From positions 682,001 to 746,000 of the forward strand of contig OW568866.1 in NCBI GenBank assembly GCA_938743325.2: DNA of 64,000 nucleotides, read 5' to 3'. Position numbers and translations under genes: made by a program. Under the pieces are notes generated by a model. It had not been told where the DNA came from, searched no databases, and was given only the letters and a program-made list of their open reading frames with translations. The DNA is from Pycnococcus provasolii (lineage: Eukaryota > Chlorophyta > Pseudoscourfieldiophyceae > Pseudoscourfieldiales > Pycnococcaceae). Below, in pieces: positions 12,631 to 51,280 of the stretch (positions within the stretch are counted from its first letter, which is position 1; each line of letters starts with the position of its first letter).

Positions 12631-13003
12631 ATGATGCAACAAGAAAAAAAATGCAACAAGATGATAGCCAACAAGATGAAGATCACAAGATCATTGGCAC
12701 ACGAAACCATCTTTTAATCAAGGGAAATCGTGAAATCAAATAAATCAGAAAGTGATTGAATGAAGGGTGTTTATACATGCATTGACACGAGTAACGAAGC
12801 AAAGAAGACTTGCTCTAATTTTCAACCCTGCACCGTTGGTGGCGATGGCGACGACGTCAATGACAACAATCGCAAGTGGAGCTCTCACTCCGGACGCCAG
12901 CGAAAAGCGGCCTGCCTGTAGCTTCGAAATCACCAGCGCCATAAAGGTATACAATCGCGCTGCTAGATGGCGCCGCTGAATGGGCTGAATGGTGAAAGTG
13001 AAT
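12631..13003. other. Convergent 3' region, no gene supported
   Basis: Between the stop of the alliinase-like gene and the 3' end of the minus-strand membrane protein. It contains A-rich repeats of AACAAGATGA type just after the plus-strand stop (about 12638-12680) and a run of ATGGTG/AATGG imperfect repeats near 12980-13012. No coding potential beyond short frames. Confidence 0.35.
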
Positions 13004-13046
13004 GGTGTGAATGGGACGACCGGTGGACAAAGTAAAGCACGAGCCA
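13004..13046 (-). repeat. Copy D of a shared 3'-end element
   Basis: Read on the minus strand, this starts directly after the TGA of the membrane-protein gene. Its core, CTTTACTTTGTCCACCGG, matches copies at about 29.8, 35.8 and 51.2 kb, followed by GTCGTCC and CATTCACACC. The orientation is sense relative to the upstream gene, as in the other three copies. No known family recognised. Confidence 0.7.
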
Positions 13047-13988
13047 TCAAATGCGTGCGGCGGCGGCATGCAGAACGACGGCGCACGTCTTGACGGCGTT
13101 TGCCATGCTAATGCCCGTTGAAGCTGCGCCGGATCGCGCGACGGCGGCAGACAGGTTAGCATGGGCTGCCGCGATGACTCCATTCGACAAGATGAGTGCA
13201 AACGCGGTCGCACGTGTCCACTTCAGCGAGCGCAGAGGTTCGTCGACCCACTCTTCCCAGCGCGGCAGCACCACAAGTGCCACGTATAGTCCAACGCAAG
13301 CTGCCGCGCTTGCTGTGAGATTTGCAACCACGACAGTGCGCGGCAGCTGGCGAAGGCGTTTGTGTCTGTGCAACGCTCCAACGGCGGCAAAGGCTGCAGC
13401 TTGTCCAAGACTGTACGCAGTTCCCAAGGCGGCGTCCCTGCTCGCGTGCGGCATTTCGTTGGTATTTAGGGCAACGGCGGCGGCGATGGTAGCGGCGGCA
13501 GCGGCGTACTGGTTGAACTTGCCGTCAAGAAGTTGGGCCAAAACCACGCCCGCGGTTGCGACGACAGCCTGGTGCAGCGCTACTCCCGCCGTCCTGGACG
13601 CTTGCGAAGCGAAAGCGATGGCGCAGACGTGCAATAGTGCCTGGACCGAGACGAGCAGACGCTGGTCACTCTGCAAGTGTATTTTGTATTCGCGCCGCTG
13701 CCTCTCCCACGTGAACATGCCGTGCGCAACAAGGGCTTGAACGCCCGTCGTGACGAGAACGGATAGGCCGCTTCGGCTTGGTATGTTGCGCGACGCCGCT
13801 CGGTGCGTGTTTGAAAGTGTGAATCCGGATAACGCAAGTGCGGCGACGAGTACGTGATTTTTCACTCTGCTTCGCGGACTTCTTCCCACTGCAAGCTGTT
13901 TTGTTCCTGAATCTCTTGTTGCGTTTGAATGATCCCCTTCGTCCAGCTTGGAGGGTGTTGGCGAATCATCATCACCGTGCTTGTGCAT
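13047..13988 (-). CDS. Polytopic membrane protein, DMT/nucleotide-sugar-transporter-like
   Basis: 313 aa from ATG 13988. A hydrophilic N-terminus of about 45 residues is followed by roughly nine to ten hydrophobic segments rich in Ala/Val (for example LVAALALSGFTLSNTH, VVATAGVVLAQLL, AAAATIAAAVALN, ANLTASAAACVGLYVALVVL). The length and an even spread of ten short helices resemble the drug/metabolite transporter superfamily, which includes nucleotide-sugar transporters, but no diagnostic motif is clear. A Golgi or plastid location is possible. The stop codon abuts the shared 3'-end element. It could equally be an unrelated small integral membrane protein; function unassigned. Confidence 0.55.
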   Translation of the reverse strand: MHKHGDDDSPTPSKLDEGDHSNATRDSGTKQLAVGRSPRSRVKNHVLVAALALSGFTLSNTHRAASRNIPSRSGLSVLVTTGVQALVAHGMFTWERQRREYKIHLQSDQRLLVSVQALLHVCAIAFASQASRTAGVALHQAVVATAGVVLAQLLDGKFNQYAAAAATIAAAVALNTNEMPHASRDAALGTAYSLGQAAAFAAVGALHRHKRLRQLPRTVVVANLTASAAACVGLYVALVVLPRWEEWVDEPLRSLKWTRATAFALILSNGVIAAAHANLSAAVARSGAASTGISMANAVKTCAVVLHAAAARI

Positions 13989-14610
13989 GACCAAAGACTG
14001 CAGAGACCTTAACTTACCTATTAAGAGTACGGTACTCTTATCTTACTGTACTGTTAAGGGAAAGGGAAAGGCTGGAGAATATCTTTAGGCTAAAGGTAAG
14101 AACTATGCATAGGAGGATCATGGGCCGCACATCAATGATCAAGCCATTGATGATGCCGTGCGGTGCCGTGCGGTGCGGTGCGGTCGACCGGGAAGAGATT
14201 CTTGTGTTTTAAAAAGGACCCGTTAGAATACAGTAGAACCTTGCACAAGAGTTTAAAAAATAACGTTGGGGAATTTAAGGCTAAGAGAGTTTTTTTCGTT
14301 TTGCGTTTTGATTTTTGACCATCCGAAAGTCCTTAAAGTCCTTAAAGTACCACCTTAAAGTACCACCTTAACTTTACATATGTCACCACATGTGGGACAT
14401 TTTGGGCGAAAATACATATTATACACTGTATATGTACGGGTCACGAATTTTCTTACATGATAGTGGTGTCCATAGTACAGTATCATATACTACGGTGTGC
14501 AACTTTATCTCTTTTTTAAAAATGGTTCTAACGTGACCGCTGCAACTAACCAAATTTTATTGTGGATAGTAAAATTATCAATAATATGTATGTAAACTCA
14601 ACAATATATA
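13989..14610. other. AT-rich intergenic region with palindromes
   Basis: Promoter side of the membrane-protein gene and 3' side of the LEA2-like gene. From about 14210 the base composition becomes clearly more AT-rich than anywhere else in the window. It contains a hairpin with 8-bp arms (CATCAATG 14130-14137, CATTGATG 14145-14152), GTGCGGTGCC-type tandem repeats (about 14158-14184), tandem CTTAAAGTACCAC units (about 14340-14368) and palindromic ATACACTGTAT (about 14420-14430). No gene seen. Confidence 0.4.
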
Positions 14611-16464
14611 TCAGCCGAATAAGAAGCCCCATAATGCATCAGCTGGGCTGCTCGGAGCAGCCGCTTCCGTTCCTGCATTCGGAGTGACGTTGTCGCGCGT
14701 CGTGGTGTTTCGGAGGCTCAGCATTGTGGAATGCTCCGCGTCGGATCCACAATGGTACACGCATAGGCACTTGCCCTGCGCTAAGCTCAATGCGATATCG
14801 TACGCAGACCCTTTCGATCCCAGCTCCAGCTCCGACTGCTGCGCAAGCGCTCGGCGGTGGGTGCCGCCCATAGCCGAGCTGAATTCCTCATCCATCTCAC
14901 TCGCGATCACCGGAGTTTCTTTAATGTTGATGGTGAATTCTGTGGTGAGCATCGCAATGTCAATTTGTCCGGTGACATTCATGCGAAGCCTGCCCTCAAG
15001 CAGTTTGGATGCCACCGCTGTAGCCTCTGACGCTGGTACGGATGCGCGGAACACTAAGAGTTCGGTGTAATTCGAGGGCACGATTATCGAGTCTGCTAGC
15101 CGTGCAACAGTAGCGCCGTCGTCGTGAATCATGCGAACCTGCGCATATTGCACAACCACTGGAAATGCCGTCGGATTATGAAGTGCGATGGTCCCGTCGA
15201 GCTCCACGTCCACGCCTGAATCTGAATTGCCCATGACGCTTCCGATCATGCTCGTGAGAGTGCTCGCGACGGAGTTGGTGAAGTAGATGCCACACACGAA
15301 CACGGTGGGTAAGTCGAAGTGCAAGTCCGTGGTGCCGGGGCACTTGGCCGTATTCCCAAAGAAATCGTTGTTGTTGTTGTTTGCGACAATTCCCAGAGGC
15401 GCTGGCGGCGGCGGCATGGCACCCGGCGGCAAGTAGCTCGGGTGCAGCGTGGTGGGCGCAAGCACGAGGTCAGTCGTTTCGTCCATCTTGAAGTCGCGAA
15501 TGCCCAGCACGTTGACCCTTGCCATTGCGCGCTGCTTGAGGTTCACCTTGTACCCGTCCAGATATGCCTGCATGCTTCGTCCTAGCACGGTGTCCTTGAG
15601 GAAGATGGTGCAAGTCGCCGCGACGAGATTGTCTCCCTTTTTGACGCGAATCGAGGGCACTTCGCACTCCATCACGCGCGCGCTGAGGTCCTTAAGCTTC
15701 AACGCAAGCGCGTTGTCAGAACCCACGGGAATCTCCGGCGTCGCATCGATGTGAACGACAGTGTTGACGATGCGTGCTTCATACGGGTTGGGATTGTACA
15801 CGGTCACGGCAGCGTACACCTTACCTGTGCCGTCGCGCGTGCTTTCCTCGAACGACTTTGCGCAAGAAAACGAAGCGTCGTTGGCAACCTCCGCAAAGCG
15901 CGTGATATTTCCCATATCAATGATCTTTGCGTCTGACACCTCCACGCCGTGGTCGCATACGTTGATCCAGCACGAGCGGAAGTCTTTCACCTGTTTAATC
16001 GTCGACCATATGGCCACGATGGTGACGACCGCTGCGACGGCGAGGAAGCTCACAACACCGCAAACCGACAAGGTGACGAGTCTCGTTTTTCGCGATACTT
16101 CCGGCCCGGCACAGCCGCAGAATAGTCGCACACGTTCTTGTGCGGCCTGTGGCGGTTTCGGCGTCGCCTCAAGCTCGGATATCTTCGCCAGCTCTTCGTC
16201 GTCGTCGTCGTCGTTCACGTTGCCGTAACTTTTGTTTTCTGCTACAGGTTCGTTACGGGTACCTTCTTCTCCTCCAACGGCATTCATCTTTGCTGTTGAT
16301 GATGATGCGTGATGTTGTTCGACTTCAGAGAGTCGAATGACGTGCGAATCAGCTGCAGAAATACTTCGGGAACTACTATCACCGGCCGGTGATGGTCCAG
16401 AATCACCACCTCCACCTGGACCTGGGGAGAATGAGAATGAGAATGAAGGAGAAGGAGGAGCCAT
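14611..16464 (-). CDS. Single-pass membrane protein with LEA2-like (WHy-type) domains
   Basis: 617 aa from ATG 16464. The N-terminal 128 residues are Ser/Gly/Asp-rich and probably cytosolic. One strong transmembrane segment lies at about 129-153, after a basic PEVSRKTR stretch. The large C-terminal part would be lumenal or extracellular and contains two regions resembling LEA2/water-stress domains: VYAAVTVYNPNPYEARIV (about 220-240), with the typical NPNPY signature, and VELDGTIALHNPTAFPVVV (about 425-445). Related single-pass LEA2 proteins in plants include NDR1/HIN1-like proteins (family knowledge). No catalytic motif is seen. It is divergent from the nitrile hydratase gene across 703 bp. 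The exact role is unknown. Confidence 0.65.
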   Translation of the reverse strand: MAPPSPSFSFSFSPGPGGGGDSGPSPAGDSSSRSISAADSHVIRLSEVEQHHASSSTAKMNAVGGEEGTRNEPVAENKSYGNVNDDDDDEELAKISELEATPKPPQAAQERVRLFCGCAGPEVSRKTRLVTLSVCGVVSFLAVAAVVTIVAIWSTIKQVKDFRSCWINVCDHGVEVSDAKIIDMGNITRFAEVANDASFSCAKSFEESTRDGTGKVYAAVTVYNPNPYEARIVNTVVHIDATPEIPVGSDNALALKLKDLSARVMECEVPSIRVKKGDNLVAATCTIFLKDTVLGRSMQAYLDGYKVNLKQRAMARVNVLGIRDFKMDETTDLVLAPTTLHPSYLPPGAMPPPPAPLGIVANNNNNDFFGNTAKCPGTTDLHFDLPTVFVCGIYFTNSVASTLTSMIGSVMGNSDSGVDVELDGTIALHNPTAFPVVVQYAQVRMIHDDGATVARLADSIIVPSNYTELLVFRASVPASEATAVASKLLEGRLRMNVTGQIDIAMLTTEFTINIKETPVIASEMDEEFSSAMGGTHRRALAQQSELELGSKGSAYDIALSLAQGKCLCVYHCGSDAEHSTMLSLRNTTTRDNVTPNAGTEAAAPSSPADALWGFLFG

Positions 16465-17167
16465 GATTAAGCTGGCCTAAACCTTAAAAAAATGAGAATG
16501 ACCGAGCAAGCCAAGCAAAGTGCACTACGGGTACAGTACAATGGGGAATTAATGGGGGCGTGCGCCGTTTAGGAAACAACGGCAAAGAGCGACACGTGCA
16601 AGAAACTGCAAGAAACAGGGGAACGAACAACGAAGTCTCACTGATGATCAACCCATCAGGATGATGATTAGGGTAGGACTACGATAGGAACTCGGAGCAA
16701 CCTAATAATGTTGTCTCATCACACTGATCATCCTAAGGCAACCTCACTCATCACCATAGAGAACTACTTTGACTATCGTGGGCCACGATGGTAGCGACAT
16801 CATATGCCATCATGCCATCATGCCATCATGCCATCATGCCATCATGCCATCGTGCCATCATGGGATCAAAGACGACCTTTAGACGACCTTTATAGAGAAG
16901 TACCACCTGGGTGGCAAAGAAAGACTCTTTTGTGGCAAACGTCAAGGTATTCCTAAAGGTATGCGCGTGGCAACTCCTACATAACCCCTAACCGTAACAA
17001 AACTCCCCCTAACCCCTAACCCCTAGGAAGTACACTGAAATCTAACCTTTGAGGGCATAGGATCCTCAAGTGTTCTCCCCCCTAGCCTGATTTGATTGTC
17101 ACACCATCTGTTATTTTTCTACCCTTAAGGTTACCGTTCTTGTATTCGGATTGGTGTGTCTGATATC
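16465..17167. promoter_or_regulatory. Divergent intergenic region with 8-bp tandem repeat and telomere-like repeats
   Basis: Contains about seven tandem copies of GCCATCAT (16805-16862) and, nearer the nitrile hydratase ATG, degenerate CCCCTAA/CCTAACC repeats at about 16982-17026 (142 bp upstream of the ATG). Short TGATCATC-type inverted motifs occur around 16640-16735. No gene is supported. Confidence 0.5.
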
Positions 17168-18604
17168 ATGCCGTCGTTAGGCGCGCACGACGTTGCCTCC
17201 CTTCCTGACTTGGGTGGCTTGGGTGACTTGGGTGACTTGGGTGACGATCCTGTATCTGCTTCTTCCTTTTACTCATTGATTTCCTCAGCTCGTTCTGGAA
17301 TGAATTCCGAGTCGTGTGTTTTCTTGTGGGAGAAACAAGTTGACGCTTTATGTATCATCGCGATGTCCTCGAAACCTCCCCTTATGACGGTCGACGAACT
17401 GAGACGGCGGATTGAAAGTCTTGAGCCGTCTGCACAAACGCACTTGTCGTATTATGCAAAGTGGGCCTGTGCGCTCCTTGGATGCCTTCGAGAACGGGGA
17501 CTTGTGAAAGAGGAGGATATCGCGAGAGAACTTGGTATCACGAAAGCATCGGAGACGGGTGCTCGTGAAACGCCGTTCGCAAAAAATGATACGGTGCGTG
17601 TGAAGTCTTTCGACTTTGCGTGCACTTGGCGCAAGCCGCACTTGCGTACACCAGGCTACATCTTTGGCCAGCGTGGAGTCGTGGAAGAGTTCATAGGCTG
17701 CTATGCCAACCCAGAGCTCGTCGCTTTCGCGGACCCGAAGGTGGCGAGCCCAAAGTGCCGACTGTATCGCGTGCGATTCCTTATGCGCGATATCTGGACT
17801 CCAAAAGGCGCAGACTTCGGCGGCGAAGACAGTATCACCGCGGAGGTGTACGAGCCTTGGTTGGAACTAGACGATGGAAGTGCCACGCACGGCGACGACG
17901 GCGCGCCAGCCCCGAAGCGAACCAAGGTGCATCATCATCACGAACATCATGACCATGGCGATCACAAGCACGTGTCTCCCGCCGAGACGGAGGAAAACGC
18001 CGTCAATCGCGAGGGGGCGCCCAAGGCTGGACAGCATCTGGCCGAGGCAACCATACGCCTTGCCGTGGATGTCGCCAACCTTGCCACGAAGGAAACTCTC
18101 CGCGCTGCGATTGAGCGAACCGAGAGCGCTGGTCAGTCGACGCTTGGTGCACGCATCGTGGCAAAGGCGTGGTGTTCACCTGAATTTAAGGCACGACTTC
18201 TCGAAGATGCACCATCTGCCATCAAGGAAGCTTTTGGAGCGGAAACGAGCAACGACACAGCCCCGACGAAGCTAATTGTCGTCGCGAATTCGCCGAACGT
18301 TCGCCATCTCGTCGTTTGCACTCTCTGTTCGTGCTACCCTCGCACGGTGCTCGGTCATTCTCCAAGCTGGTACCGAAGTCGTCACTATCGCGCGCAGGCT
18401 GCGCGCGATCCGCGTGCAATTCTCCGCATGTTCGGATCGGAACCTGACGCATCTACGCGCGTTGAGGTTCACGACGCGACGGCGGACTGCCGTTTCCTCG
18501 TCCTCCCAGAGCGCCCTTCGAACACAGAGGAGATGAGCGAGGACGAGCTGAGCAAATTGGTGACGCGCGACAGCATGATTGGTGTTGCACTGTGTTGTTT
18601 GTAA
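17168..18604 (+). CDS. Nitrile hydratase, fused beta-alpha subunits, cobalt type
   Basis: 478 aa from ATG 17168. The enzyme hydrates nitriles to amides. Residues 1-250 match the beta subunit: an HDVASLPDLGGL start, then TPGYIFGQRGVVEEF, CRLYRVRFLMRDIW and EVYEPWLE. A linker of about 45 residues contains HHHHEHHDHGDHKH. Residues about 290-478 match the alpha subunit, with KAWCSPEFKARLL, the metal-binding claw CTLCSC at 384-389 followed by YPRTVLG, and the C-terminal VTRDSMIGVA. Thr as the second residue of the claw is the cobalt-type signature. Bacteria encode the subunits separately; single-chain beta-alpha forms with a His-rich linker are known in a few eukaryotes such as choanoflagellates. 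No activator gene lies nearby. No targeting peptide is obvious, so a cytosolic location is inferred. Confidence 0.93.
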   Translation: MPSLGAHDVASLPDLGGLGDLGDLGDDPVSASSFYSLISSARSGMNSESCVFLWEKQVDALCIIAMSSKPPLMTVDELRRRIESLEPSAQTHLSYYAKWACALLGCLRERGLVKEEDIARELGITKASETGARETPFAKNDTVRVKSFDFACTWRKPHLRTPGYIFGQRGVVEEFIGCYANPELVAFADPKVASPKCRLYRVRFLMRDIWTPKGADFGGEDSITAEVYEPWLELDDGSATHGDDGAPAPKRTKVHHHHEHHDHGDHKHVSPAETEENAVNREGAPKAGQHLAEATIRLAVDVANLATKETLRAAIERTESAGQSTLGARIVAKAWCSPEFKARLLEDAPSAIKEAFGAETSNDTAPTKLIVVANSPNVRHLVVCTLCSCYPRTVLGHSPSWYRSRHYRAQAARDPRAILRMFGSEPDASTRVEVHDATADCRFLVLPERPSNTEEMSEDELSKLVTRDSMIGVALCCL

Positions 18605-18729
18605 GTGTCCTAATAATCGTTTTTTGTTTGAAGAGATGATTTTTGTAAATGTTTTTTTGTCTTTTTACACGCTAGGTGTGTAAAATCCCAATCTCTAATC
18701 CCCACAGCAAATCACTTGTCTCTTCAAAT

Positions 18730-27806: not shown

Positions 27807-27848
27807 ATGTCCATGTCCACGTCCGTCACTCCGAGGATGCGTGTTCAG

Positions 27849-27900
<52 letters not shown>

Positions 27901-29738
27901 GCAGTCACCATCTTGGTGGCTTGGTCTTGGTGGCTCGTCTTGGTGCGTTTGGTGGTTTGCCTTATCGTCGTCGTCCCTCTCCAAATTATCGTCGTCCCTC
28001 TCATAATAATGTTACGTTCATGTTCGGGCGGGGTGTTCAGGGTGGTGGTGGTGGTGGTGGCACTGCTTTATCCGCCTTGCCGGACTCAGAAGGGTCTTCA
28101 GGGTCTTCAGATTCGGCTGATGATTCGGAGTCTTCTTCAGCATCGGACATCAAAAATGTCGACGTCGCTGAGACGCCTCTGTCACCGTCCTCAAAAGAGA
28201 ATTCCCTGGAAGGGGAAGGCGAGGAGGATAAGGAGAGTAACATAGCAGCACCGCCATCTGCGTCGTTTGCGCAACCCATCACGTCCGACCAGCTCGACGC
28301 CATCGAGCAAGGGGAAGCGACGCTGGCGCCTGTGTCGTTATCACTCACGGACAAGGCGGAGCTGCTGAACGGACGCCTCGCCATGGTTGGCTTCGTCGCG
28401 GCGCTGGGAGCGGAGACGAAGTATCCTCAGCTTGAAAGCATCAGGCAGCAGTTCTACACTGACCCTTGGCTCATTCTCGCCTTTGTGGCAATAACGACCG
28501 GACTCACCTTTTACCTGCCTGTCGTCCTTGCCGAACGCGGTCTTGTCGGAGTCGACGCCTCAGCTGACAAACAGCAGCAGGCTCTATCGCAAGGCACCGT
28601 TGCTGGCGAATACGGCGACCTCATACGCGCCGAGCGCCTGAACGGAAGGCTGGCGATGCTAGCATTTGCGCTCGTCTTCAGCATAGAGAACCTACGCAAC
28701 GGCCAGGAGGCGTTTCCATTTCTTGAGGACTTGTTCACGTACTTCCTCCCTCGCGCATTCGTCGGAGAGGCCATCGACGTCTTTTTCAACATTCGCGCGC
28801 ATCACACGTCAAACATCGAGGACGCATATCTGCTGCTACTGACCGCCGCAAGCTTGTTTTGCCTCGGTCAGATGACCACGACACCGCGAAAGAGCAGAAG
28901 TATCGGAACTGACATTCACATTGCGACTGGAGCGCTTCAATTTGTGCTCGCTCTGTACGCCGTGCTTCTTCAGCGAGTCTACCGCGAGGTCCCAGGTTGG
29001 GACTGGCACTGGATGAGCCTCGCAGCATGCCTGGCGTCATGCGCCACCGTGGGCCCGTTGATGAAGTACTACAAAGGACCACGCGTGTACCAGACACTCT
29101 TCAAATTAGGTCAAGACTTTGTGATTTCATTTCAAGGAATTCAGCTCACGGCATGGAGCGCGAGACCTGATGCACCCGAGTGGATGTACTGGGCAGTTCA
29201 GCCGTTCTGGTTCTGGAGCATCCTGAAGCTGTACACTTCGGCGCAGTACGCCTTTGCACTTTCGCCGATGGAGTGGTTTGGACTCGACGAGACGACAGCC
29301 GATAGGAGCAAGCAAGGCGAGAACGTGAATGCCGGCCCGCTCGGCAGCTTCGCGCTGAAATGTCGATCACAACTAGATGGGATGCAAAGAGATGCGCCCA
29401 CCTACATCTATGTCGGTCTGAATACCGCCGCGGCGCTGTTCGACAATGCATGGATGTTTTTGTACACCGTGAAAGGTCCGGAGGCATTCTGGCAGTACTC
29501 CCGGCTCTATGCACCAAACGACCTCTCGCTCTCTCTCATCAAGCCTGCAGCGGGAAGTCTCACCGTGAGCGCCGTGGTGTTTTTGGGAACGCTTGCGGCG
29601 CGGAGGAAGGTGCCAGCATGGCTTGCCGGTGCACTAAACGTCATGTTGGCGTCCGTCGGTCCCTGGCTCATCCTCTTCTGGCATCGCCTGGTTGATCCAA
29701 GTGAAGCATGGTTTCCTCAGTTTATGCCGTTGCCATAA
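27807..29738 (+). CDS. ELIP/LHC-like three-helix domain fused to polytopic membrane domain
   Basis: 643 aa from ATG 27807, in an excellent start context (GCCGCCATG). The N-terminus is a plastid-type leader containing a (Ser-His)n tract encoded by a TCACTC repeat, then a Ser/Asp-rich segment. Two chlorophyll-binding helix motifs are clear: AELLNGRLAMVGF (about 184-196) and AERLNGRLAMLAF (275-287), with a hydrophobic helix (221-240) between them. Together they give the three-helix layout of early-light-induced and related stress proteins, which bind pigments and protect thylakoids (family knowledge). Unusually, about 345 more residues follow, with seven or eight hydrophobic segments (for example IATGALQFVLALYAVLLQ, MYWAVQPFWFWSILKLY, VSAVVFLGTLAA). 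I do not recognise that domain. A shared 3'-end element lies downstream. Confidence 0.8.
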
Positions 29739-29739: not shown

Positions 29740-29778
29740 AATAAGCTAAGTTCGCTCAAAATAAGCTAAGTTCGCTCA
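29740..29778 (+). repeat. Tandem 20-bp direct repeat at a 3' end
   Basis: AATAAGCTAAGTTCGCTCA occurs twice in tandem (29740-29758 and 29760-29778), starting right after the stop codon of the ELIP-like gene and running into the shared 3'-end element. Probably a local duplication of 3'-UTR sequence. Confidence 0.8.
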
Positions 29779-29829
29779 TTCAGTAATGGAATGTACTTTA
29801 CTTTGTCCAACGGTCGTCCATCGTTCTCC
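29774..29829 (+). repeat. Copy A of a shared 3'-end element
   Basis: Sense-oriented copy downstream of the ELIP-like gene. Contains TCATTCAGTAATGGAATG followed by TACTTTACTTTGTCCAACGG and TCGTCCATC. Copies B (35758-35813), C (51231-51280) and D (13004-13046, minus) share the same order of blocks. Confidence 0.8.
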
Positions 29830-32876: not shown

Positions 32877-33096
32877 GGCTTAAGCAAACTCTCCCAGGGG
32901 CAAAAACGCGAGGCCACGGGGGAGGGGGAGGAGGACGAAACCAAGCGACAAGACAAGCCTAATAACCCTAATCCGAAAGCAAACCCTAACCCCAACGTAA
33001 ACCCTAACCCTAACGTAAACCCCCTTGGAAAAAACCTATGGGGATCCCCCCTTGCACTAAACTTGCGTCCTCTTGCAGTCCTGTCCACAGAAATCT
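32877..33096. promoter_or_regulatory. Short divergent promoter with telomere-type repeats
   Basis: 220 bp between the uS5 and Lon-N start codons. At 32960-33022 it carries four or more CCCTAA/CCTAACCC units interspersed with GTAAAC (for example AACCCTAACCCTAACG). The array lies about 75 bp from one ATG and 85 bp from the other, so it could serve both genes. Confidence 0.6.
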
Positions 33097-34440: not shown

Positions 34441-34784
34441 CACCAAGATTGCAGCAATAATAAGCCAATAGACTAACAACAACGCAACGCAACGCCTGAT
34501 ACCTGAACGTGAAACGTCAAAAGTGATATAACCATACCAACTTATAACCCTAAAGTGCTTCCCCCCCCTTTTAAAACCCTAACCCGAATGGTTTGTGTTA
34601 TTTTTTTTGGGGGTTTGGGGTTTGGGTTTGGGGTTTGGGCTACGACCGTGTACCCGTACGGCCGTACCGTGTGTCGTGGTATGGCGTTATTCTAAAATCT
34701 TCCGCCTCCTCCTCCGCTTCGCTCCTCCGCTCCTCCGCTCCTCCGCTCCTCCGCTCCGCACCTTCGTTCGTTCAGCTGGATCCT
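34441..34784. promoter_or_regulatory. Intergenic region with telomere-like and TTTGGGG repeats
   Basis: Between two plus-strand genes. It contains TAACCCTAAA (about 34545-34554), AAAACCCTAACCC (34573-34585), a TTTGGGGTTTGGG array (about 34613-34640) and a CTCCGCTCCTCCGCTCC tract (about 34715-34757) just before the ATG at 34785. No gene is supported. Confidence 0.5.
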
Positions 34785-35729
34785 ATGGTGGACACAACTC
34801 ATGGCTTCCACCCTCTGACGCCTCACGACGCTCCGTCGTTCATGGCGTACAAGCGCTTGAATTTGATTCGAAACCTGATCATAATTTTGATTTTGTTCGT
34901 CTTCTTTAATGTCGTGGCTCTCTCCTTGGCTGTCTCTTCTGCACCATCTGTTTCTGCTCTCGATGGTCTCGCCCCTGCGGGCTCCGCGCGGATCCTCTGC
35001 GCCGTTATGCTCGCGTTATGCTCGTGCGTTGTGCTCTCGGACGTTACCGTGGGCGCATTTCCGTACCTCGACAAACACAAGTTTCACGTCACGAACACGC
35101 CGCTCGGAAGCCTCACCTATCTCACATTTGAGGGTGTCACGTCGCAGTTTGTGTGCTACACGTCCAACGCCATCGCGGAGGTGGCACTTGCGGCGAGCGG
35201 GTGCGACACCAAAGGGAGTGGGTCGTTGGCGGAACAGTCCGAATGGCTTTGCCCCAGTGCAAGGCGCGTTGTGTTCCTCACACACGCCGCCGCCACTTTT
35301 GCTGGTGCCTTGGGGTGCATTGTTAGTATTTTGTTCTTCGTGCTTGTGTGGAATGGGCCAGACTTCAAGGCTGTGCGCAGGTATTGGGATAAGCACGTTG
35401 GCGGGTTTTCCGAAAACATGATCAGAGGACACGTTCCTCCGTTGCTGCTCGCCATCGTCGACATCACCGTCGTCAAGCGACGCGCGCTGCTTTCGTCTAT
35501 CCCTGTCAACGACACTGTCATCGCGATGTGCTTCGCGCTCGCCTACCTCATCCTCGTCAACACCGTCTCTTACCTTAACGGAGGGTATTACCCATACCCA
35601 TTCATGACTGAGTTTCTCGGACGCAAGCCGCTGCGATGGATCGTTTTCTACTTCGCGGTAACAGGCTTTGCGCTGAGCGTGACCGCGGCATTGAAGATGT
35701 TGAGCCGCCACTACACAATTTGGCCATAG
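34785..35729 (+). CDS. AIG1/FAR-17a (ADTRP)-like integral membrane protein
   Basis: 314 aa from the first ATG, 34785. Six hydrophobic segments are visible, for example NLIIILILFVFFNVVALSLAV, ILCAVMLALCSCVVLSDVTV, VVFLTHAAATFAGALGCIVSILFFVLV and WIVFYFAVTGFALSVTAALKML. SLTYLTFEGVTSQFVCYT (about 109-126) resembles the conserved Thr-containing segment, and MIRGHVPPLLLAIVDI the conserved His-containing segment, of AIG1/ADTRP proteins. Those are threonine hydrolases of fatty-acid esters of hydroxy fatty acids (family knowledge). YYPYPFMTEF near the C-terminus also fits the family. The assignment rests on these motifs only. A shared 3'-end element follows the stop by about 30 bp. Confidence 0.55.
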   Translation: MVDTTHGFHPLTPHDAPSFMAYKRLNLIRNLIIILILFVFFNVVALSLAVSSAPSVSALDGLAPAGSARILCAVMLALCSCVVLSDVTVGAFPYLDKHKFHVTNTPLGSLTYLTFEGVTSQFVCYTSNAIAEVALAASGCDTKGSGSLAEQSEWLCPSARRVVFLTHAAATFAGALGCIVSILFFVLVWNGPDFKAVRRYWDKHVGGFSENMIRGHVPPLLLAIVDITVVKRRALLSSIPVNDTVIAMCFALAYLILVNTVSYLNGGYYPYPFMTEFLGRKPLRWIVFYFAVTGFALSVTAALKMLSRHYTIWP

Positions 35730-35757
35730 GTTTCGTGTGTTGTAATAGACTATGTTT

Positions 35758-35813
35758 GCTCATTCAGTAATGGAATGTACTTTACTTTCGTCAAGCGGTC
35801 ATCCGTTCACACA
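35758..35813 (+). repeat. Copy B of a shared 3'-end element
   Basis: Sense-oriented copy 29 bp after the AIG1-like stop codon. It shares GCTCATTCAGTAATGGAATG and TACTTTACTTT with copy A, then diverges slightly (CGTCAAGCGGTCATCCGTTC) and ends ACAC like copies C and D. Confidence 0.8.
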
Positions 35814-35992
35814 TCTTTGGCAAAAAGGAGCTTGACAAGAAGTTTTCAACCGAATTTTTGCACAAGAGCAGTAGGATAAGAATTTTTTGTTACCAGTTTG
35901 CAAAGGGTGGTGGCGTCCAACAAAGCACCCGCCGTTCACCAAACAACAACTTTGGGCTCAAATGAGCGTCCTGAGCACTTCCATCCGACTCT

Positions 35993-43480: not shown

Positions 43481-43482
<2 letters not shown>

Positions 43483-43550: not shown

Positions 43551-43552
<2 letters not shown>

Positions 43553-44742: not shown

Positions 44743-44841
44743 GGGCCTAGGCCATCGAGAATATGTGCGGCGGGGGGGGCTAACCCTAACCCTAATGGTG
44801 GCACGGGGGCTCCGCTTTCCCTGTTTCACTCAGCCGTGCGC
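44743..44841. promoter_or_regulatory. 99-bp bidirectional promoter with telo-box
   Basis: The entire space between two divergent ATGs. At 44781-44796 it contains TAACCCTAACCCTAAT, 39 bp from one start and 46 bp from the other. Such a short shared region implies a bidirectional core promoter. Confidence 0.6.
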
Positions 44842-45798
44842 ATGCCCAGCGTCGCCGCTCCGTCATGGCGTGCTGCTGGCGCTGCTGGAGTTGCTGGTCT
44901 CGCTGCTCGCCGCTGGGCTCGCCGCTGCGCGTCCTCACTATCAACGCCCTCGCCTTCGTCGCACGAAGCTGTGCGCGCAACCTCGCGCGTCCTGAAAAAG
45001 CTACTCGACGAACAAACGAAAGGTGGGGTCGTCGTGCTGCTTGGAGCAGGCGCTTCAGCATCTGCAGGATTACCTGACTTTCGCACTCCAGGTACGGGGC
45101 TCTACGACAATCTCCAAGAGTACAACTTACCGTTCGCAGAGGCAATCTTTGACTTGCAATTCTACAGGCAAAACGCAGAGCCGTTCAACAGACTCGCACG
45201 AGAGCTGTACCCCGGCGGAGTCAAACCAACTGCTATGCATCGCTTCGTTAGCCTTCTCGACGAGCACCAGCTTCTCACTCGATGTTTTACGCAAAATATT
45301 GATAGCCTCGAGACTGCAGCAGGCTTAAGGAAGTCCATGGTAGTCGCTGCTCATGGTAACTTTGATACAGCTAGCTGCATCGACTGCGGCGCGCCTGCGC
45401 AGGAAGATCTTGTGAGACAGTCGCTGTGCGAAGGGGCGGAACCTCAGCAGCCTACTTGTTCAGCGTGCGGCGGCAAGGTCAAGCCAGGCATCGTCTTCTT
45501 CGGCGAGGCTCTTCCTGAGCGATTCTTCGCACTCGCACCTGAGATACGCGAATGTCGCTTGCTCATCATCGCGGGAACGTCGCTCACGGTCCACCCTTTC
45601 GCATCGTTGCCAACGCTCGCGAGTCCGCAGTCTCTCCGCGTGCTGGCTAATCGCGAGCTTGTTGGTCAGGAGCTCGGATTGCGCTATGTTGACGACGTTG
45701 GCAAGAACAACGACGTGGGTGACATCGCATTCCTCGGCGACACGGATGCCTTTGCCAAAGCTGTGGCGTTGGAAGTATTCGGTTTGGAAGATTTGTAG
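44842..45798 (+). CDS. Sirtuin, SIR2-type NAD-dependent protein deacylase (class I-like)
   Basis: 318 aa from ATG 44842. Uses NAD+ to remove acyl groups from lysines. The N-terminal 40 residues (Ala/Arg/Ser, no acids) look like a mitochondrial presequence. NAD-binding GAGASASAGLPDFRTPGTGLYDNL is at 68-91, TQNIDSLE at 150-157 and catalytic His171 in HGNF. The zinc site uses Cys179/Cys182 and Cys206/Cys209, and PGIVFFGE at 215-222 closes the active site. These match the SIRT1-3 class. Canonical GAGIS has Ala here (GAGAS), a minor change. Upstream in-frame sequence has no ATG. It is followed by hairpin repeats and a convergent desaturase gene. Confidence 0.93.
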   Translation: MPSVAAPSWRAAGAAGVAGLAARRWARRCASSLSTPSPSSHEAVRATSRVLKKLLDEQTKGGVVVLLGAGASASAGLPDFRTPGTGLYDNLQEYNLPFAEAIFDLQFYRQNAEPFNRLARELYPGGVKPTAMHRFVSLLDEHQLLTRCFTQNIDSLETAAGLRKSMVVAAHGNFDTASCIDCGAPAQEDLVRQSLCEGAEPQQPTCSACGGKVKPGIVFFGEALPERFFALAPEIRECRLLIIAGTSLTVHPFASLPTLASPQSLRVLANRELVGQELGLRYVDDVGKNNDVGDIAFLGDTDAFAKAVALEVFGLEDL

Positions 45799-45872
45799 GA
45801 AAAGAATTGTAATTTTAAAAGGCTCGAATACACATAATTTGTATTATATATATACTAATCTCACTTTATTCC

Positions 45873-46024
45873 TCTCGGCCCACGCCGAGAACGTCTATCT
45901 GGAATTAGAAATTCTATAATAAATACACACCAGTTGTGGTGTAGTTTTGTACTCATATATACCATCTCTATATTCGAGACTCTCGGCCCAGGCCGAGAAC
46001 TCTCTTATTCTCTCGGCCCAGGCC
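45873..46024. repeat. Three TCTCGGCCCA-GGCCGAGA hairpin repeats between convergent genes
   Basis: Near-palindromes at 45873-45890 (TCTCGGCCCACGCCGAGA), 45981-45998 (TCTCGGCCCAGGCCGAGA) and a half copy at 46011-46024 lie in the 250 bp between the sirtuin and desaturase stop codons. An AT-rich TATATA segment separates them. They could form RNA hairpins in the 3' ends of both transcripts. Confidence 0.75.
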
Positions 46025-46048
46025 TTTCGAGTTTGCGTAGACTTTTGT

Positions 46049-47893
46049 CTATTCGCTTCGCGTGGCGCCCGCGCACTGGCCAAGCGTGATGATCACCTCG
46101 CGATTCGCCTCGTAGAAGGAAATCGCGTGGTACTCAAGACCAAGCTTCGAGCAGAGAGCCTCCACGTGAGTGGAGGCTGCACGAAGGTGACGTCGACTCA
46201 AGCGCGGGTACAGGTGGTGCTCGATCTGGAACTGAAGGCCGCCGTAGAGCCAGTCCCACGCGCGAGATGTGGCGTAGTTCAGCGTGCCGCTCAGCTGAAG
46301 CTTCACCCAGTTCGTGAGCTCCGCGCACGGGCGTCCGTTGTACATGTCCCGCGAGAAATGGCTCGCGCTGATCATCGTGTGCAGCATAAGCCCGCAGACG
46401 ACGTGCGACGTGAGCACGCACGCGAACCGAAGCTCGGCTCCAGGAACTTGGCTCATGACAGCAGTAACCCAAGCAAAGTATCCCATGAACGTCAGCAGAC
46501 GAGCAATCAGGTGCGTTTTCGAGACAATGGCATTCGGGACACTCGACGCGGGCGCGGGTGCCGCCGGCCTCGGCGCCAACGCGCTGTGCTCAAACTCCGG
46601 CTCCGGCGCGGGCGCGGGCGCCAGCTCCTGTCTTGGCGAGCGTTTCGCGACGGAGGTAACCTTGCTGCTCTTTGGTGCTTTGGTCGGCGTGGCCAAGAAG
46701 GCGTGGTAATGCTGCAACGCGATGTGGCACAAGCTCTGCACGTAAAGGTTGAAGCGCGCGACGGCCATCAGCGGGTAGAAGTACACGTGCTGGTAGCGCG
46801 TGATCGCACGCGATATGGCGTCGAACGGCATGAAACGCATGTGGTAGAACGAGTAGTTTTCGCCGTCGCAGAAGCGCTCGTCGAGAGCAAGCACGGGCAG
46901 GTGCTGGATGTCCGGGTCGTAGTGCACGCTGTTCACAGCCACGTGGTGAACGTTGTGCGTGCTCTTCCACCAGTCGATGTCGATGCCGTTGAGCAGATTC
47001 CCCACGACGATGCCAAGCCAGAATTCTGAGCCACGATCCCTCATCACGCTGTTGTGCCCGCAGTCGTGGCCGACGAAGGCAACCTGCTGCCAGAAAACGC
47101 CCAGCAGCACGGCACCAAAGAGGCGCACGATCGCGGGCGACTGCTCGTGCACGAGGAGCGTGATGGACGTGCCGAGCAGCACGGCAAGCCTTGCGAGCAA
47201 GGCGGCGTAGTACACCGGCTCTTTCTCGTACCAGCCCCACTTCTCAAATTCGCGATCCAGGTCGTGGAACGCCTGCGCGGTTTCGTCAACCTCGACACTG
47301 TCGTCTTCACCTTTCTTATTGTCTTGGTTGCCGCGCACGAGCGTTCCAATGCGAAAGGACGGCAGCATTTTGCGAACCTTCTCTGGGTGCATGAGCCTGA
47401 ACGACTCGGATGCGTCGCGTCCGGCAGTGGCGAGCAACGTGCGCGGTCCTCCAGGGTGTCGTGCGAGGAATGCCGTGACGTCGTACACATCTCCGTCAAT
47501 GGCGATCCAGCTGGATGCCGGTGAGTCGTGCAACGCGAGCTCCGCCTGCGTGATCAACACGTCGTCATCGTCGTCGTTTCTTTTCTGAGAAACCTTCTTA
47601 TTATTATCCACGAAAGACTTCTTCTTTTTTCCTCCAACTGAAGATGACTCAAGAAGTTTACCCTGAGAGCGCGCAGGGGGGGACGGCGAGCGCATTAAGG
47701 CGTCCTTTCCAGGACCTTTCTTAGAAGCACGAGCCCCAGTAACTGTAGTCTTACGAGATCTACCAGCCGCGAGATCATCCAAGTCGAGAGCCGAGGACGG
47801 AGGTGCCACCACCCCCTCCGCCGCTGGGACCCCCTCTTTCACGAGAGGAGCGGGAGCCTCCATGAGAGGAGACGTGGATGCAGCTGCCACCAT
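46049..47893 (-). CDS. Cytochrome b5-fused front-end fatty-acid (or sphingolipid) desaturase
   Basis: 614 aa. A membrane enzyme of the ER introducing a cis double bond between an existing bond and the carboxyl end (delta-5/6/8 type, family knowledge). The N-terminal 110 residues are an unusual low-complexity, basic extension. The cytochrome b5 domain has the heme motif HPGG at 146-149. Three histidine boxes follow: HDCGH (276-280), HNVHH (313-317) and QIEHH (556-560), where Gln in box three is the front-end signature. Hydrophobic helices flank the boxes. A Pro/Ala/Glu-rich insert of about 60 residues (400-458) separates boxes two and three and is atypical. Regioselectivity cannot be predicted. 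ATG 47893 is the only Met consistent with the open frame. Confidence 0.92.
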   Translation of the reverse strand: MVAAASTSPLMEAPAPLVKEGVPAAEGVVAPPSSALDLDDLAAGRSRKTTVTGARASKKGPGKDALMRSPSPPARSQGKLLESSSVGGKKKKSFVDNNKKVSQKRNDDDDDVLITQAELALHDSPASSWIAIDGDVYDVTAFLARHPGGPRTLLATAGRDASESFRLMHPEKVRKMLPSFRIGTLVRGNQDNKKGEDDSVEVDETAQAFHDLDREFEKWGWYEKEPVYYAALLARLAVLLGTSITLLVHEQSPAIVRLFGAVLLGVFWQQVAFVGHDCGHNSVMRDRGSEFWLGIVVGNLLNGIDIDWWKSTHNVHHVAVNSVHYDPDIQHLPVLALDERFCDGENYSFYHMRFMPFDAISRAITRYQHVYFYPLMAVARFNLYVQSLCHIALQHYHAFLATPTKAPKSSKVTSVAKRSPRQELAPAPAPEPEFEHSALAPRPAAPAPASSVPNAIVSKTHLIARLLTFMGYFAWVTAVMSQVPGAELRFACVLTSHVVCGLMLHTMISASHFSRDMYNGRPCAELTNWVKLQLSGTLNYATSRAWDWLYGGLQFQIEHHLYPRLSRRHLRAASTHVEALCSKLGLEYHAISFYEANREVIITLGQCAGATRSE

Positions 47894-48264
47894 AATCTTA
47901 AGATGAAGATGACAAACTTTGGAGAATGAGAATGAAAGCGTGTGGTGGTATGGCCCGGGGGGTAAGCTACTTTACCGGTACCCTGAAAAAAAGGCTTTTT
48001 TTATTTTTTTTGCTTTTTTTTCAAGTTTTGTTCTGGTTTTTTCTGAACAAAAAAAGAAGAATCTTTTCCCTGGCCCTGGCTGCCTGGGGGCGAAACGATG
48101 CCTAGAGGGGACGTTTTTGGGTTCGTTGCCGACGCCAGACACCGCACAGACTAAGGGCATCATCAGGGCCACGGGTACATTTGAGGGGAAAAAAAACTCT
48201 GTTCATAGTGTTTTCCGTGGAACGGTCGAATTGAACTGTTACATGGTCACAAGGGCGTGTCCAT
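47894..48264. other. Desaturase upstream region bordering the transposon
   Basis: T-rich and G-rich low-complexity sequence (T-runs at about 47995-48035) between the desaturase ATG and the candidate left end of the Harbinger-like element. The desaturase promoter must lie here. No gene is supported. Confidence 0.35.
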
Positions 48265-49622
48265 GAACAGTGTTCATTTCGTATTTCCATGGGGTATCCC
48301 CTCCCTGTCCTCCTCTCCCTCCCTTGTTCTCCATGCTCTTCCTTGGGGGGAGCAGTTCCTTCGTATCCCGCGCCCTTCGCCCTTTCGCATTTCAAACTTG
48401 CAATTGAAAGGTATTAAATGGCGTCGCCTGTTGTTTGGCCTCAACCAGAGAAGATGCTTCTGTCTCTTCTTGTGGAAGAGGAGAAGCTGCTGCGTGAGGA
48501 GGAGGAAGAAGACGCAGCTCGGAAGAAACTCACCACGGTGGTGCTCCTCACCGCCGCGCTCATCCTTTGCGATGACGACGACGCCACAGCGAAACGGGTG
48601 CTCGACGAAGTGCGCCTCTGGGGTGGCAGCCGCCTCGGACGCAAGTATTCAGTGCCTAAGTGGCTGTCGCACTGGGTGAACATCGAGGCGAAGCTCGCCA
48701 CCTTGAACACCGCGAACTGGAAGTTGCAATTCGGCGTGTCGAAGGAGCTCTTCAGCAGGCTCGTAAGCGACCTCACGCCCGCGCTGCGGCCGCGTTCCGC
48801 AGCCTTCAGACACCCCGTCCCTCCGTCTCTTTCGGTTGCTGTGGCTTTGGTGCGCTTTCGCTTCGGGCACAGCTTCGCGGTTTGTGCGTCGTGGTTTGGC
48901 ATCGGCTATGCCACCGCGCGGAACTGCGTGTTGGAGGTCATGCACGCCATTTCCGTCGTCTACCACGACGTCATCAGGCTTCCGACGGGTGACGACGTGA
49001 AGGCGGATATGCAGCTCATGGACGCGAAAGGCCTGCCGCAGTGCGGCTGGGCATTGGATGGCACTGAAGTTCCAGTGCGGGCGCGTGCGACGGAAGTTGT
49101 CGCGAAGCGCAACAGGAAAGGGATCGTCAGCGACAAGGTCCTCATCATGGTGAACGACAAGCTCCTCATCAGGTTCGCGCAGATCGGCATGGCCGGGAGC
49201 AACGGCGACGGCAGGGCGTTCGCGTACAGCACGCTGCAGGCTGCAATTGAGGACGGCACGTGGCCTCCGTCAGGTTTCGACAAAGAAATCTTAGGCGTGA
49301 GCGTGCCGCCGCAGGTTCTCATCGACGCAGCGTTCCCTGCGACTAACAACACCGTGAAACCGTTCTCAGGAGACACGACCGCGGCGGCAGAGAGGGAGTT
49401 CAATTTTCTCCACAGCTCTCTGCGCATGTGCGTGGAGCGCGCGAACGGTGTCCTGAAGCGCAAAGCTCACCGCACGCCATTAAAACGATAAAACGACGGA
49501 AGCAATGAGAACGTGGCAAACCTTCCTGGTCTTCCTTTGCGTTTCGGAGAAACTCCGGAGGGGGGGGGGGGGGGGGGGGGGAACAGGTATCCCCAGCAGG
49601 CTCGGCGAAGTGAACATTGTTC
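48265..49622 (+). mobile_element. Candidate PIF/Harbinger-type DNA transposon with imperfect inverted repeats
   Basis: Flanks the transposase gene. The left GAACAGTGTTCATTTCG (48265-48281) and the reverse complement of the right CGAAGTGAACATTGTTC (49606-49622) match at 15 of 17 bases. Both are followed inward by a GGGGTATCCC-like block. The true ends may lie further out; no target-site duplication was established. Confidence 0.45.
48418..49491 (+). CDS. Harbinger/HARBI1-like DDE transposase, C-terminally short
   Basis: 357 aa from ATG 48418. The N-terminal half contains a helix-turn-helix-like region (about 105-185; VSKELFSRLVSDL, SFAVCASWFGIGYATARNCV). The DDE_4-type nuclease core has WALDGTEVPV (Asp214), MAGSNGDGRAFAYS (Asp264) and RMCVERANGVLK (Glu340), so all three acidic residues are present. 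Harbinger transposases normally continue 50-80 residues beyond the Glu motif; here the frame ends 17 residues later at HRTPLKR, suggesting truncation or decay at the 3' end. A 22-base G run follows (49560-49581). No partner Myb-like Harbinger protein is seen next to it. It could be a domesticated gene, but the flanking inverted repeats favour a transposon. Confidence 0.8.
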   Translation: MASPVVWPQPEKMLLSLLVEEEKLLREEEEEDAARKKLTTVVLLTAALILCDDDDATAKRVLDEVRLWGGSRLGRKYSVPKWLSHWVNIEAKLATLNTANWKLQFGVSKELFSRLVSDLTPALRPRSAAFRHPVPPSLSVAVALVRFRFGHSFAVCASWFGIGYATARNCVLEVMHAISVVYHDVIRLPTGDDVKADMQLMDAKGLPQCGWALDGTEVPVRARATEVVAKRNRKGIVSDKVLIMVNDKLLIRFAQIGMAGSNGDGRAFAYSTLQAAIEDGTWPPSGFDKEILGVSVPPQVLIDAAFPATNNTVKPFSGDTTAAAEREFNFLHSSLRMCVERANGVLKRKAHRTPLKR

Positions 49623-50356
49623 AATTCGTTGGACAAGCTTTTTCCCTCGTCCAGGTTTTTGGACAATGTTCATCCCCAGAATCCCCTTTTGGACAGTTGG
49701 TCTGATGTCAAAAACCAGGAATTTCCCCATTTTTCCCCCAAAACAGGCAGTTTTGGACGAATGTGATGTGGGGCTAACTTACCGCAGTACCGCAGGGTAT
49801 GTATGACGGGAGTGAACGGAATAAGCGGTGCCCGTTGCCGACTTTAAAGTCCGAAGCTCATCACCCTCGAGAATCGAGAGCGAGATCGATGACGTATTCG
49901 CTTTCCTGAATTCGACGGGCTCACGGGCAATCAAGTCGCAACTCGCAACGAACGAAATATCACACTGGCCTTGCACTGGCGGAAAAAAATAGTACTACCT
50001 ATACCCGGTACAGTGCGCCGCGAACAATGATAACGGAGCGAAGAAGAGAACTGGCTATCTATATAAGGTCCACTACGAGAGCCGAGGGACATGCAAGACA
50101 TCACGAGTGACATCACGAGCATGACTACGATAGAGGTATTGGAACTATAGGTAAAACGAACCCTAACCCTAACCCCGAACAAACCCGAGGAAAGGAAATG
50201 GAGTAAAGGACACTTATAGATGTTTGTTTGGAAATGGGGATCCACCCTGAGACGAATTCTTATCACCAACGCGTTAAATCCGCAACCCCCTTTTCTTTCT
50301 TGGCGCGCACCCCAACCCGGTTAACCCATCCCATCCTGCCAGCACAGCACAGCGCG
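49492..50356. other. Intergenic region with poly-G run and telomere-type repeat
   Basis: Contains a run of 22 G (49560-49581), the candidate right transposon end, TGTTCATCCCCAGAATCCCC-type sequence, and CCCTAACCCTAACCCC (about 50159-50176) 180 bp before the chosen F-box-like ATG (57 bp before the alternative ATG 50234). No gene is supported. Confidence 0.45.
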
Positions 50357-51208
50357 ATGGCCACGTCCACGTCCGCGTCACACGTGCTTGCCTCCCACTC
50401 CCACTCCCACTCCCACTCCAACTCCAGTGGTGCCTTCTTCTTCGGTGACTACCTTCCCGAGTCTTTGTATCATGTCGTCTTCTCGTGCCTATTGACTTCA
50501 AAAGACACTGTTGTTGATGCCTCTTGTCTTGGTAACGATTCTACGTCCTCCTCCTCGTCGTCGTCGTCGTCGACATTAAAGTCAATACAGGCTCTGCTGA
50601 CAGCTTCCACGGTGTGCAAGCGCTGGCGCTCGTGGATTCTTAATAACGAAGCCCTGTGGAAACAAGCGGCACAAATCAGGTGGAAAGATAAAGCACAACC
50701 GCTCTCGCCCTCAAAAGCAAAGTTGAAGGCACAGAGCGATGACTCAGCAGACTGCTCAGACGACGACACAAGCTGCTGGTGGAGGCCACTGAACGACGAA
50801 ACGTGGTACGACGCATTTCGACGCGTGGAAAGCGACGCAAGGCGAGTCTCCATCACAAGAGAAGAACTCGCAGCCACGACGTGGAAGTTCAAATTCCAGG
50901 TTGACCACGAGATGCTTTTCAGAAGGCCGGAGGACCCTAACCCGCCACGACCCGCGGAATGGGAATGCGTCTTCACCGCTGACAGCATGTTCGTCTCGAA
51001 CGTCCCACATGCACCAAGCACGCGAAGGCCGCTCAAGTGGAGCTGGGTGGTTGACAGCGCTTGCGAAGCAGCCGACGACGCGGCGACGCGAGTCGTCGTT
51101 GGCCCATACCCACCACTAAAGGTGAGCCGCCGCGAAGACTGGTCGTGGGTGCTCGAGAACCAGTTTGTGCGAATCACGAACCCTCCCTCCACCGCACTGT
51201 TGCTGTAA
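50357..51208 (+). CDS. F-box-like protein
   Basis: 283 aa from ATG 50357 (good context GCGCGATGG; an earlier in-frame ATG at 50234 would add 41 residues). A Ser-His repeat near the N-terminus (ASHSHSHSHSHS) is encoded by CCACTC repeats. An F-box-like region follows: YLPESLYHVVFSCLL..., then a Ser-rich insertion, then SIQALLTASTVCKRWRSWILNNEALWKQAAQIRW (about 75-110). The VCKRWR...ALWK pattern is typical of the second half of an F-box. The remainder (ETWYDAFRRVESDARR; FKFQVDHEMLFR) resembles helices and strands following F-boxes in uncharacterised proteins. It would recruit substrates to an SCF ubiquitin ligase (inferred). A shared 3'-end element follows. Confidence 0.65.
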   Translation: MATSTSASHVLASHSHSHSHSNSSGAFFFGDYLPESLYHVVFSCLLTSKDTVVDASCLGNDSTSSSSSSSSSTLKSIQALLTASTVCKRWRSWILNNEALWKQAAQIRWKDKAQPLSPSKAKLKAQSDDSADCSDDDTSCWWRPLNDETWYDAFRRVESDARRVSITREELAATTWKFKFQVDHEMLFRRPEDPNPPRPAEWECVFTADSMFVSNVPHAPSTRRPLKWSWVVDSACEAADDAATRVVVGPYPPLKVSRREDWSWVLENQFVRITNPPSTALLL

Positions 51209-51230
51209 ATACAATTTTAACTAAGATCAA

Positions 51231-51280
51231 CTCGTTATGGAGTGTACTTTACTTTGTCCAACGGTCGTCCATCCACACCG
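51231..51280 (+). repeat. Copy C of a shared 3'-end element
   Basis: Sense-oriented copy 23 bp after the F-box-like stop. It has CTCGTTATGGAGTG, then TACTTTACTTTGTCCAACGG and TCGTCCATCCACACCGG. It matches copy A almost perfectly over about 37 nt. Confidence 0.8.

Follow-up and report, generated by a model that had tools for sequence, protein, structure and literature searches.

Genes and Repeat Copies in the Window

The window analysed here is a stretch of 64,000 nt on chromosome 6 of Pycnococcus provasolii (C6:682001-746000; contig OW568866.1), in which four copies of a dispersed repeat lie just after the stop codons of four genes or open reading frames (ORFs), each copy on the sense strand of its gene and all of them between convergent genes. 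The initial annotation had described these copies as a block of 40–55 nt and read it as a post-transcriptional or 3′-end-forming element. We find that the block belongs to a much longer repeat, which in the copies examined sits at the 3′ ends of genes and always points the same way, and which we read, on balance, as a retroposon family resembling short interspersed elements (SINEs).

All four copies are present at the places and on the strands originally reported. A 20-nt core, searched with up to three mismatches, matched the window three times against 0.00 expected from 100 shuffles; the copy at 35758 carries an indel and is not among these matches. When the window copies were left out of a profile of the left 75 nt, this profile still recovered all four, and the next profile match in the window scored 3.5 bits, below the best match in ten first-order shuffles (6.3 bits).

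Anatomy of the Repeat

The block proved to be the left end of a repeat that measures about 1 kb at full length (981–1,029 nt in the three copies with both ends placed) and is apparently non-coding. The size first given was therefore too small, copy 1 of the window alone running on to 12829, and the notion of a fixed module of 40–55 nt was abandoned once longer copies had been found. The left border is fixed and reads CTAAG/CTGAG-ATC(G/C)CTCATTCAGTAATG, upstream of the block as originally drawn. Aligned copies share one start point (CTAAG/CTGAG-ATC) and extend rightward for very different lengths, from approximately 51 to 952 nt among 62 copies, 36 of which are shorter than 135 nt. The long copies fall into at least two subfamilies. 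The longest ATG-initiated frame in three long copies has 114 codons and lies on the strand given in the initial annotation; a reading frame on the reverse strand of older copies, considered as coding content, was rejected, being broken in the long copies. Just to the right of the element copies, loci L001 and L045 have another repeat in common, ~290 nt long (78% identical) and unrelated to the element.

Copy Number and Graded Loss of the Right End

The genome searched comprised 46 contigs (32.33 Mb); an excerpt of the published description of the P. provasolii CCAP190/2 genome lists 44 chromosomes and two organelles (PMC11130579). One protein of the searched genome matches a named P. provasolii protein with 100% identity along 97% of its length. 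With up to two mismatches, the core occurs at 197 places (104 on the plus and 93 on the minus strand), against one for a reversed-pattern control. All copy counts are lower bounds. From the density of profile matches, four in the window and six more in 40 six-kb loci beyond their founding copies, we estimate the family at about a thousand copies genome-wide.

Matches become progressively rarer toward the right end. In the younger subfamily, a left 20-mer was found with at most one mismatch at 147 places, against 45 for a 20-mer at about +160. Older-subfamily probes (up to two mismatches) gave 292 places for the left end, the 197 already mentioned for the core and 51 at about +170, although the drop to 51 is overstated because the younger subfamily is deleted there and the probe does not fit it. 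A 249-nt left piece returned 571 first-look candidates genome-wide, 40 of which were scored, while a body piece (positions ~375–895) returned 51 candidates. The last 202 nt gave 20 matches from 19 candidates; six of the 20 come to 6 nt or less from the end, and the rest stop at 94–188. Left ends number in the hundreds, against 12 right-terminal matches (a lower bound obtained with a younger-subfamily probe). Read in reverse complement, this pattern of loss is a 3′-anchored, 5′-truncated ladder, as incomplete reverse transcription leaves.

Placement at Gene 3′ Ends

Placement was measured on a sample of 62 copies. Fifty of them came from core similarity or from the initial annotation (46 outside the window plus its four copies), and 12 others (L049–L060) were picked on length and score from the 40 scored matches to the 249-nt left piece; L005 and L006, which are the window's own copies, were dropped. 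Genes were called with a custom caller based on coding potential and trained on 21 Pfam-supported ORFs, which ignores introns and overlooks genes with low scores, including two of the four in the window.

A called same-strand stop lies between −21 and +146 nt from the left border in 56 of the 62 copies, at a median of 7 nt. In 51 it falls between −21 and +48, while by chance the interval −25 to +50 would take in 1.7% of positions and strands. The sense-strand placement at gene 3′ ends noticed in the initial annotation is thus borne out, and to an extreme degree, and the genome-wide core search that it had proposed leads to copies clustered at or just after same-strand stops in the sample. In the other six copies (two from the window plus L010, L013, L021 and L055), a sense ORF 396–1023 nt long ends −21 to +84 nt away; the support they lend is weaker, because these ORFs score low for coding. 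No copy lies inside a called gene, that is, a gene covering both border and core (0/62).

Both neighbouring genes were called for 51 copies, one neighbour being uncalled in the remaining 11. Of these contexts, 41 are convergent, nine tandem and none divergent, with a single (−,−) call. Copies in tandem contexts are all sense to the upstream gene, and at the (−,−) copy, L010, the 1023-nt sense ORF ends 84 nt upstream. Among the 12 copies not selected on the core, ten have called stops at −21 to +16 and one at +94; in the uncalled one, L055, a 690-nt sense ORF ends 3 nt before the border. Eight further profile matches were found in the flanks: four with a called sense gene at −21 to +42, three without a called left gene, and one partial match 253 nt from a stop. 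The better-preserved subfamily is placed about as tightly as the rest, and the flanks show only weak A-richness.

The right end is not anchored, its distance to the convergent stop having a median of 97 nt and a minimum of 22 nt in 44 copies. Convergent contexts make up 41 of 50 element ends and 35 of 53 element-free ends (p = 0.08); because the two shares differ little, the gene end, not the type of spacer, emerges as the target. At L016 and L018, each of two convergent genes carries its own copy, sense to that gene. Treating these facing copies as one element with inverted ends was rejected, since each pair consists of two left ends, one per convergent gene. Facing left ends also lie 77 nt apart at C18:538134(+) and C18:538211(-), where a single pair of convergent genes may have been hit twice.

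Table 1. Copies of the repeat in the window and the genes or ORFs that precede them (window positions).
Feature	Position	Strand	Details
Copy 1	12829..13047	-	consensus 28-234 at 12829-13040 (C6:694829-695040); profile 32.6 bits at 13047-12993
ORF, stop abutting copy 1	13047..13994	-	no Pfam hit; low coding score
Copy 2	29762..29829	+	~60-68 nt; profile 67.0 bits at 29767-29822
Gene upstream of copy 2	27807..29738	+	Chlorophyll a/b-binding domain PF00504
Copy 3	35750..35822	+	~63-73 nt; profile 50.7 bits at 35751-35813
Gene upstream of copy 3	34593..35729	+	no Pfam hit
Copy 4	51217..51285	+	~60 nt; profile 53.4 bits at 51228-51285
ORF upstream of copy 4	50228..51208	+	F-box-like, 22.5 bits vs Pfam cut-off 24.3; low coding score

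The window copies differ in preservation (Table 1). Copy 1 has its left ~20–27 nt of the consensus missing or eroded and retains the body to consensus position ~234, and the left border of copy 4 has a small internal deletion. Directly before copy 2, at 29742-29781, a 20-nt unit holding the left border (AAAATAAG plus the element's first 12 nt) is directly duplicated, by slippage or by a first copying attempt that was aborted. As for the gene labels proposed initially, the ELIP-like one agrees with the Pfam match, the F-box-like one corresponds to a match that falls slightly short of the Pfam cut-off, and the AIG1-like one, with no counterpart in Pfam, is not supported.

Other Features of the Window

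One ORF at 17156-18604 (+) contains nitrile hydratase beta-N, beta-C and alpha domains and is thus a beta-alpha fusion. A DDE_Tnp_4 transposase ORF, which we take to be of Harbinger type, lies at 48418-49491 (+), and a gene for a Dpy-30-motif protein with 18-nt coding repeats at 52413-53122. Interstitial telomere-like runs of TTAGGG/TTTAGGG occur at 4955-4997, 32979-33023 and 53759-53807. Finally, a tandem array of the 8-mer ATGCCATC occupies 16788-16875, upstream of the ORF at 14611-16464 (-).

Stop Codons and 3′-End Signals at the Border

The left border brings stops in two frames, TAA/TGA at +2 and TAA at +19. The element's own stop ends the called gene in 17 of the 62 copies, 13 times at the border TAA/TGA (−4) and four times at the +19 TAA (−21), whereas a stop in the third frame is never used (stop phases 13:4:0, p = 0.0004). 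At L019 the called gene ends at −9/−10. Two proteins ending at the border stop finish 3 and 1 residues before their relatives do (79% and 77% identity); with so small a difference, insertion probably took place just before the old stop, terminal drift being another possibility.

Within 60 nt after the stop of element-free genes, TGTAA was present at 18 of 60 ends against 5.5 expected. Over the wider interval of −6 to +150, it occurs at 33 of 77 element-free ends (in the window and L009–L061) and overlaps the stop itself in 11 of them; such overlap with a TAA stop suggests very short 3′ untranslated regions (UTRs) in this alga. According to an excerpt of a survey in which Pycnococcus is not named, UGUAA is reported as the poly(A) signal of all chlorophytes examined except one and peaks ~17 nt before the cleavage site (PMC1868727). 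With TGTAA near the stop and cleavage at that distance from TGTAA, transcripts are predicted to be cleaved between about +10 and +45, a zone that overlaps the insertion zone.

In the 30 nt before the border, TGTAA was found at 7 of 60 copies against 1.25 expected (eight of the 62 were dropped and six extra added). Between −6 and +150, it is rarer at element-bearing ends than at the element-free ends above (9/56 vs 33/77; Fisher p = 0.0012), the six copies without a nearby called gene having been dropped. The insert may thus either replace the TGTAA signal or have displaced it, and because of this correlative depletion the inserts may now supply 3′-end signals themselves. To that extent inserted copies may have a 3′-end role, one part of what the initial annotation proposed. 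The core is not specially conserved. Mean pairwise identity per 25-nt bin in the 12 copies not selected on the core is 0.92, 0.83, 0.95, 0.92, 0.91, 0.86, 0.89, 0.86, 0.88 and 0.93, and the bin at 0.83, the lowest of the ten, is the core itself (positions 26–50). No conserved fold was found on the sense strand (6 pairs, −1.1 kcal/mol; the other strand was not folded). The proposed check for compensatory changes likewise yielded no conserved RNA structure on this strand, with a two-sided change at one of the six pairs, in one sequence. An Rfam search of the window matched no family.

Search for a Mobilizing Partner

Matches to reverse transcriptase (RT) were found 42 times in the genome. At the match on C25, an ORF piece resembles LINE-1 ORF2 among solved structures (E ~2e-18), and its best match is an unnamed RNA-directed DNA polymerase (1e-18). 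Two other RT matches, which we take to be DIRS-like from their RT/RNase H context, were considered as partners and rejected, the DNA downstream of them being free of the element's end. At L026 (C2:1197501-1197686, -), an RT fragment, presumably also DIRS-like, lies ~200 nt from the element and in the element's own sense.

Origin of the Repeat

A fixed 3′ end with variable 5′ truncation is a hallmark of non-LTR (long terminal repeat) retroposons, and judging from the sequence comparisons the family appears to work like one; a LINE-1-type RT piece is also present in the genome. We therefore lean toward reading the block as one end of a SINE-like retroposon family that is probably targeted to gene 3′ ends on the sense strand. 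What is new is the choice of target, the 3′ ends of genes on a single strand. The initial annotation had argued against a mobile element on the ground that transposons should insert both ways; a dispersed repeat with a fixed end and graded loss, as retroposition leaves, is nevertheless what we find. Several observations weigh against the retroposon reading. Target-site duplications (TSDs) are not clearly above chance in 52 copies (10 of the 62 were dropped), with 6-mers at 5 vs 1.5 expected and 7-mers or longer at 0 vs 0.4. A search of four loci in Rfam for an RNA polymerase III (Pol III) or tRNA-like head gave one sub-threshold match (E 0.54) and left the last ~40 nt uncovered. As both TSDs and such a head were tested for and not found, we do not file the repeat as a SINE. 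No autonomous partner was found, the DNA downstream of two RT matches lacks the element's end, and four distal pieces (C5, C11, C20 and C34) have no adjoining body and are possible right parts without a left end. The stop-phase bias of 13:4:0, moreover, implies that selection also shapes the pattern.

The remaining difficulties concern the right end. In full-length copies, this end (CATTCAATATTGAATGAGCGATCCTAG) mirrors the left end over ~22 nt as a terminal inverted repeat (TIR); beyond these ~22 nt, its sequence is different from the left end. Nine right ends were read, and five of them showed the inverted form (L061, L062, L065, L066 and, in part, L069), as did L050. Two-ended, internally deleted copies exist as well: at C1:1264892-1265007 (-), the left end and right-terminal sequence lie on the same strand ~120 nt apart, and on C10 a left end and a distal piece are separated by 157 nt. 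These features, together with the DDE transposase ORF in the window, speak for a DNA transposon or miniature inverted-repeat transposable element (MITE) that prefers gene 3′ ends and has lost the right half of most copies by deletion, a possibility that we take seriously but consider rather unlikely. TIRs are confined to full-length and a few internally deleted copies, and most copies do not keep both termini, as would be expected of such elements: the loss is strongly one-sided, with left ends far outnumbering the at least 12 right-terminal matches. An inverted right end lying no more than 1.2 kb from one of the 62 left ends scored above the null only at L050 and L018, and the one at L018 is a second left end. 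The fixed-length TSD of a TIR transposon was not found in the 52 copies either, and near-symmetric ends predict that either end should be met at stop codons.

The bias toward the stop phase with the smallest effect on the protein, and the rarity of TGTAA at element-bearing ends, where the insert may supply the signal, would also fit random retroposition followed by purifying selection, which would keep only copies lying just after stops in the orientation whose left end can signal a 3′ end. We regard this as improbable. Copies of either orientation should be tolerated in the remainder of the spacers and in longer intergenic DNA, but none of the 51 copies lies in a divergent spacer, and the only (−,−) call has its own sense ORF upstream. 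The tight placement of the better-preserved subfamily and the lack of copies in divergent spacers lead us to prefer targeted retroposition to selection alone. Least probable of all is the proposal of the initial annotation, a selected 3′-UTR element, terminator module or RNA regulon, to which we attach very little weight. Sense placement just after stops and fewer TGTAA signals would be expected under it, but the similarity of long copies extends far past the block, and the genes with Pfam hits have no common theme. With the core the least conserved block, in copies not selected on it, and no conserved sense-strand fold, a selected RNA regulon is unsupported.

A Possible Route of Insertion

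If the repeat spreads by targeted retroposition, its RNA, the reverse complement of the strand given in the initial annotation, would have no tail and would terminate in 3′-...GAGCGATCTTAG or ...GAGGGATCTCAG. The 3′-OH left where the sense strand of the gene is nicked would prime the reverse transcriptase, and the RNA would be copied from its 3′ end, with reverse transcription often stopping early. The nick would fall in the cleavage and polyadenylation zone, as very short 3′ UTRs and TGTAA at or just after the stop would place it, and the choice of strand would follow from the non-template strand being exposed at transcript ends. The insert would displace the native 3′ end, and the element's left part would then have to serve as the new 3′-end region. 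More tentatively, we suggest a eukaryotic retroposon whose insertion is tied to the ends of RNA polymerase II transcripts, with reverse transcription primed from the non-template strand in the cleavage or termination zone of almost any protein gene; it would bring ready-made stops and take the place of the native 3′ end in a considerable fraction of host genes. On present evidence, this fuller version is somewhat doubtful.

Relation to Known Elements

Like SINEs and truncated LINEs, the repeat has one fixed end, graded truncation, no long frame, many copies and diverged subfamilies; unlike them, it has no poly(A) or simple-repeat tail and no TSD, no Pol III head was found, full-length copies have TIRs, and copies are placed in a single orientation at the 3′ ends of genes. 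Bacterial group IIC introns, which are placed after terminators, are similar in that retroelement placement is tied to transcript ends, whereas the present repeat is nuclear and eukaryotic and matched no intron in Rfam. Some retrotransposons are site-specific, among them R2 and Dictyostelium TRE3, the latter inserting downstream of tRNA genes, and show position- and orientation-specific insertion as well, but here unrelated protein genes offer a whole class of target sites at their ends, and A-richness in the flanks is weak. The SIDER elements of Leishmania form large families of short degenerate retroposons, and SIDER2 lies mostly in 3′ UTRs, according to an excerpt of their description (PMC2323293). 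The likeness is drawn from that description, and while SIDER2 is placed there inside long 3′ UTRs, the border here is at the stop codon. Introners, as outlined in part of a report on them (PMC9860276), are non-autonomous repeats spread through genes, with TIRs in some families; the present repeat resembles them in these respects, but introners sit inside coding genes and are spliced, and none of the 62 copies was found within a called gene. In literature searches on the phenomenon, algal SINEs, introners and the organism, no title or abstract among the matches listed described such an element.

Some retroelements are known to choose safe sites, at rDNA, tRNA genes and telomeres. A retroelement inserting at the 3′ ends of ordinary protein genes, and on a single strand only, would, if this reading is true, link retroposition to 3′-end formation or termination. 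Its copies would then serve as a natural map of where the poly(A) zone lies, and P. provasolii would have a genome that has repeatedly been swapping gene ends for mobile DNA.

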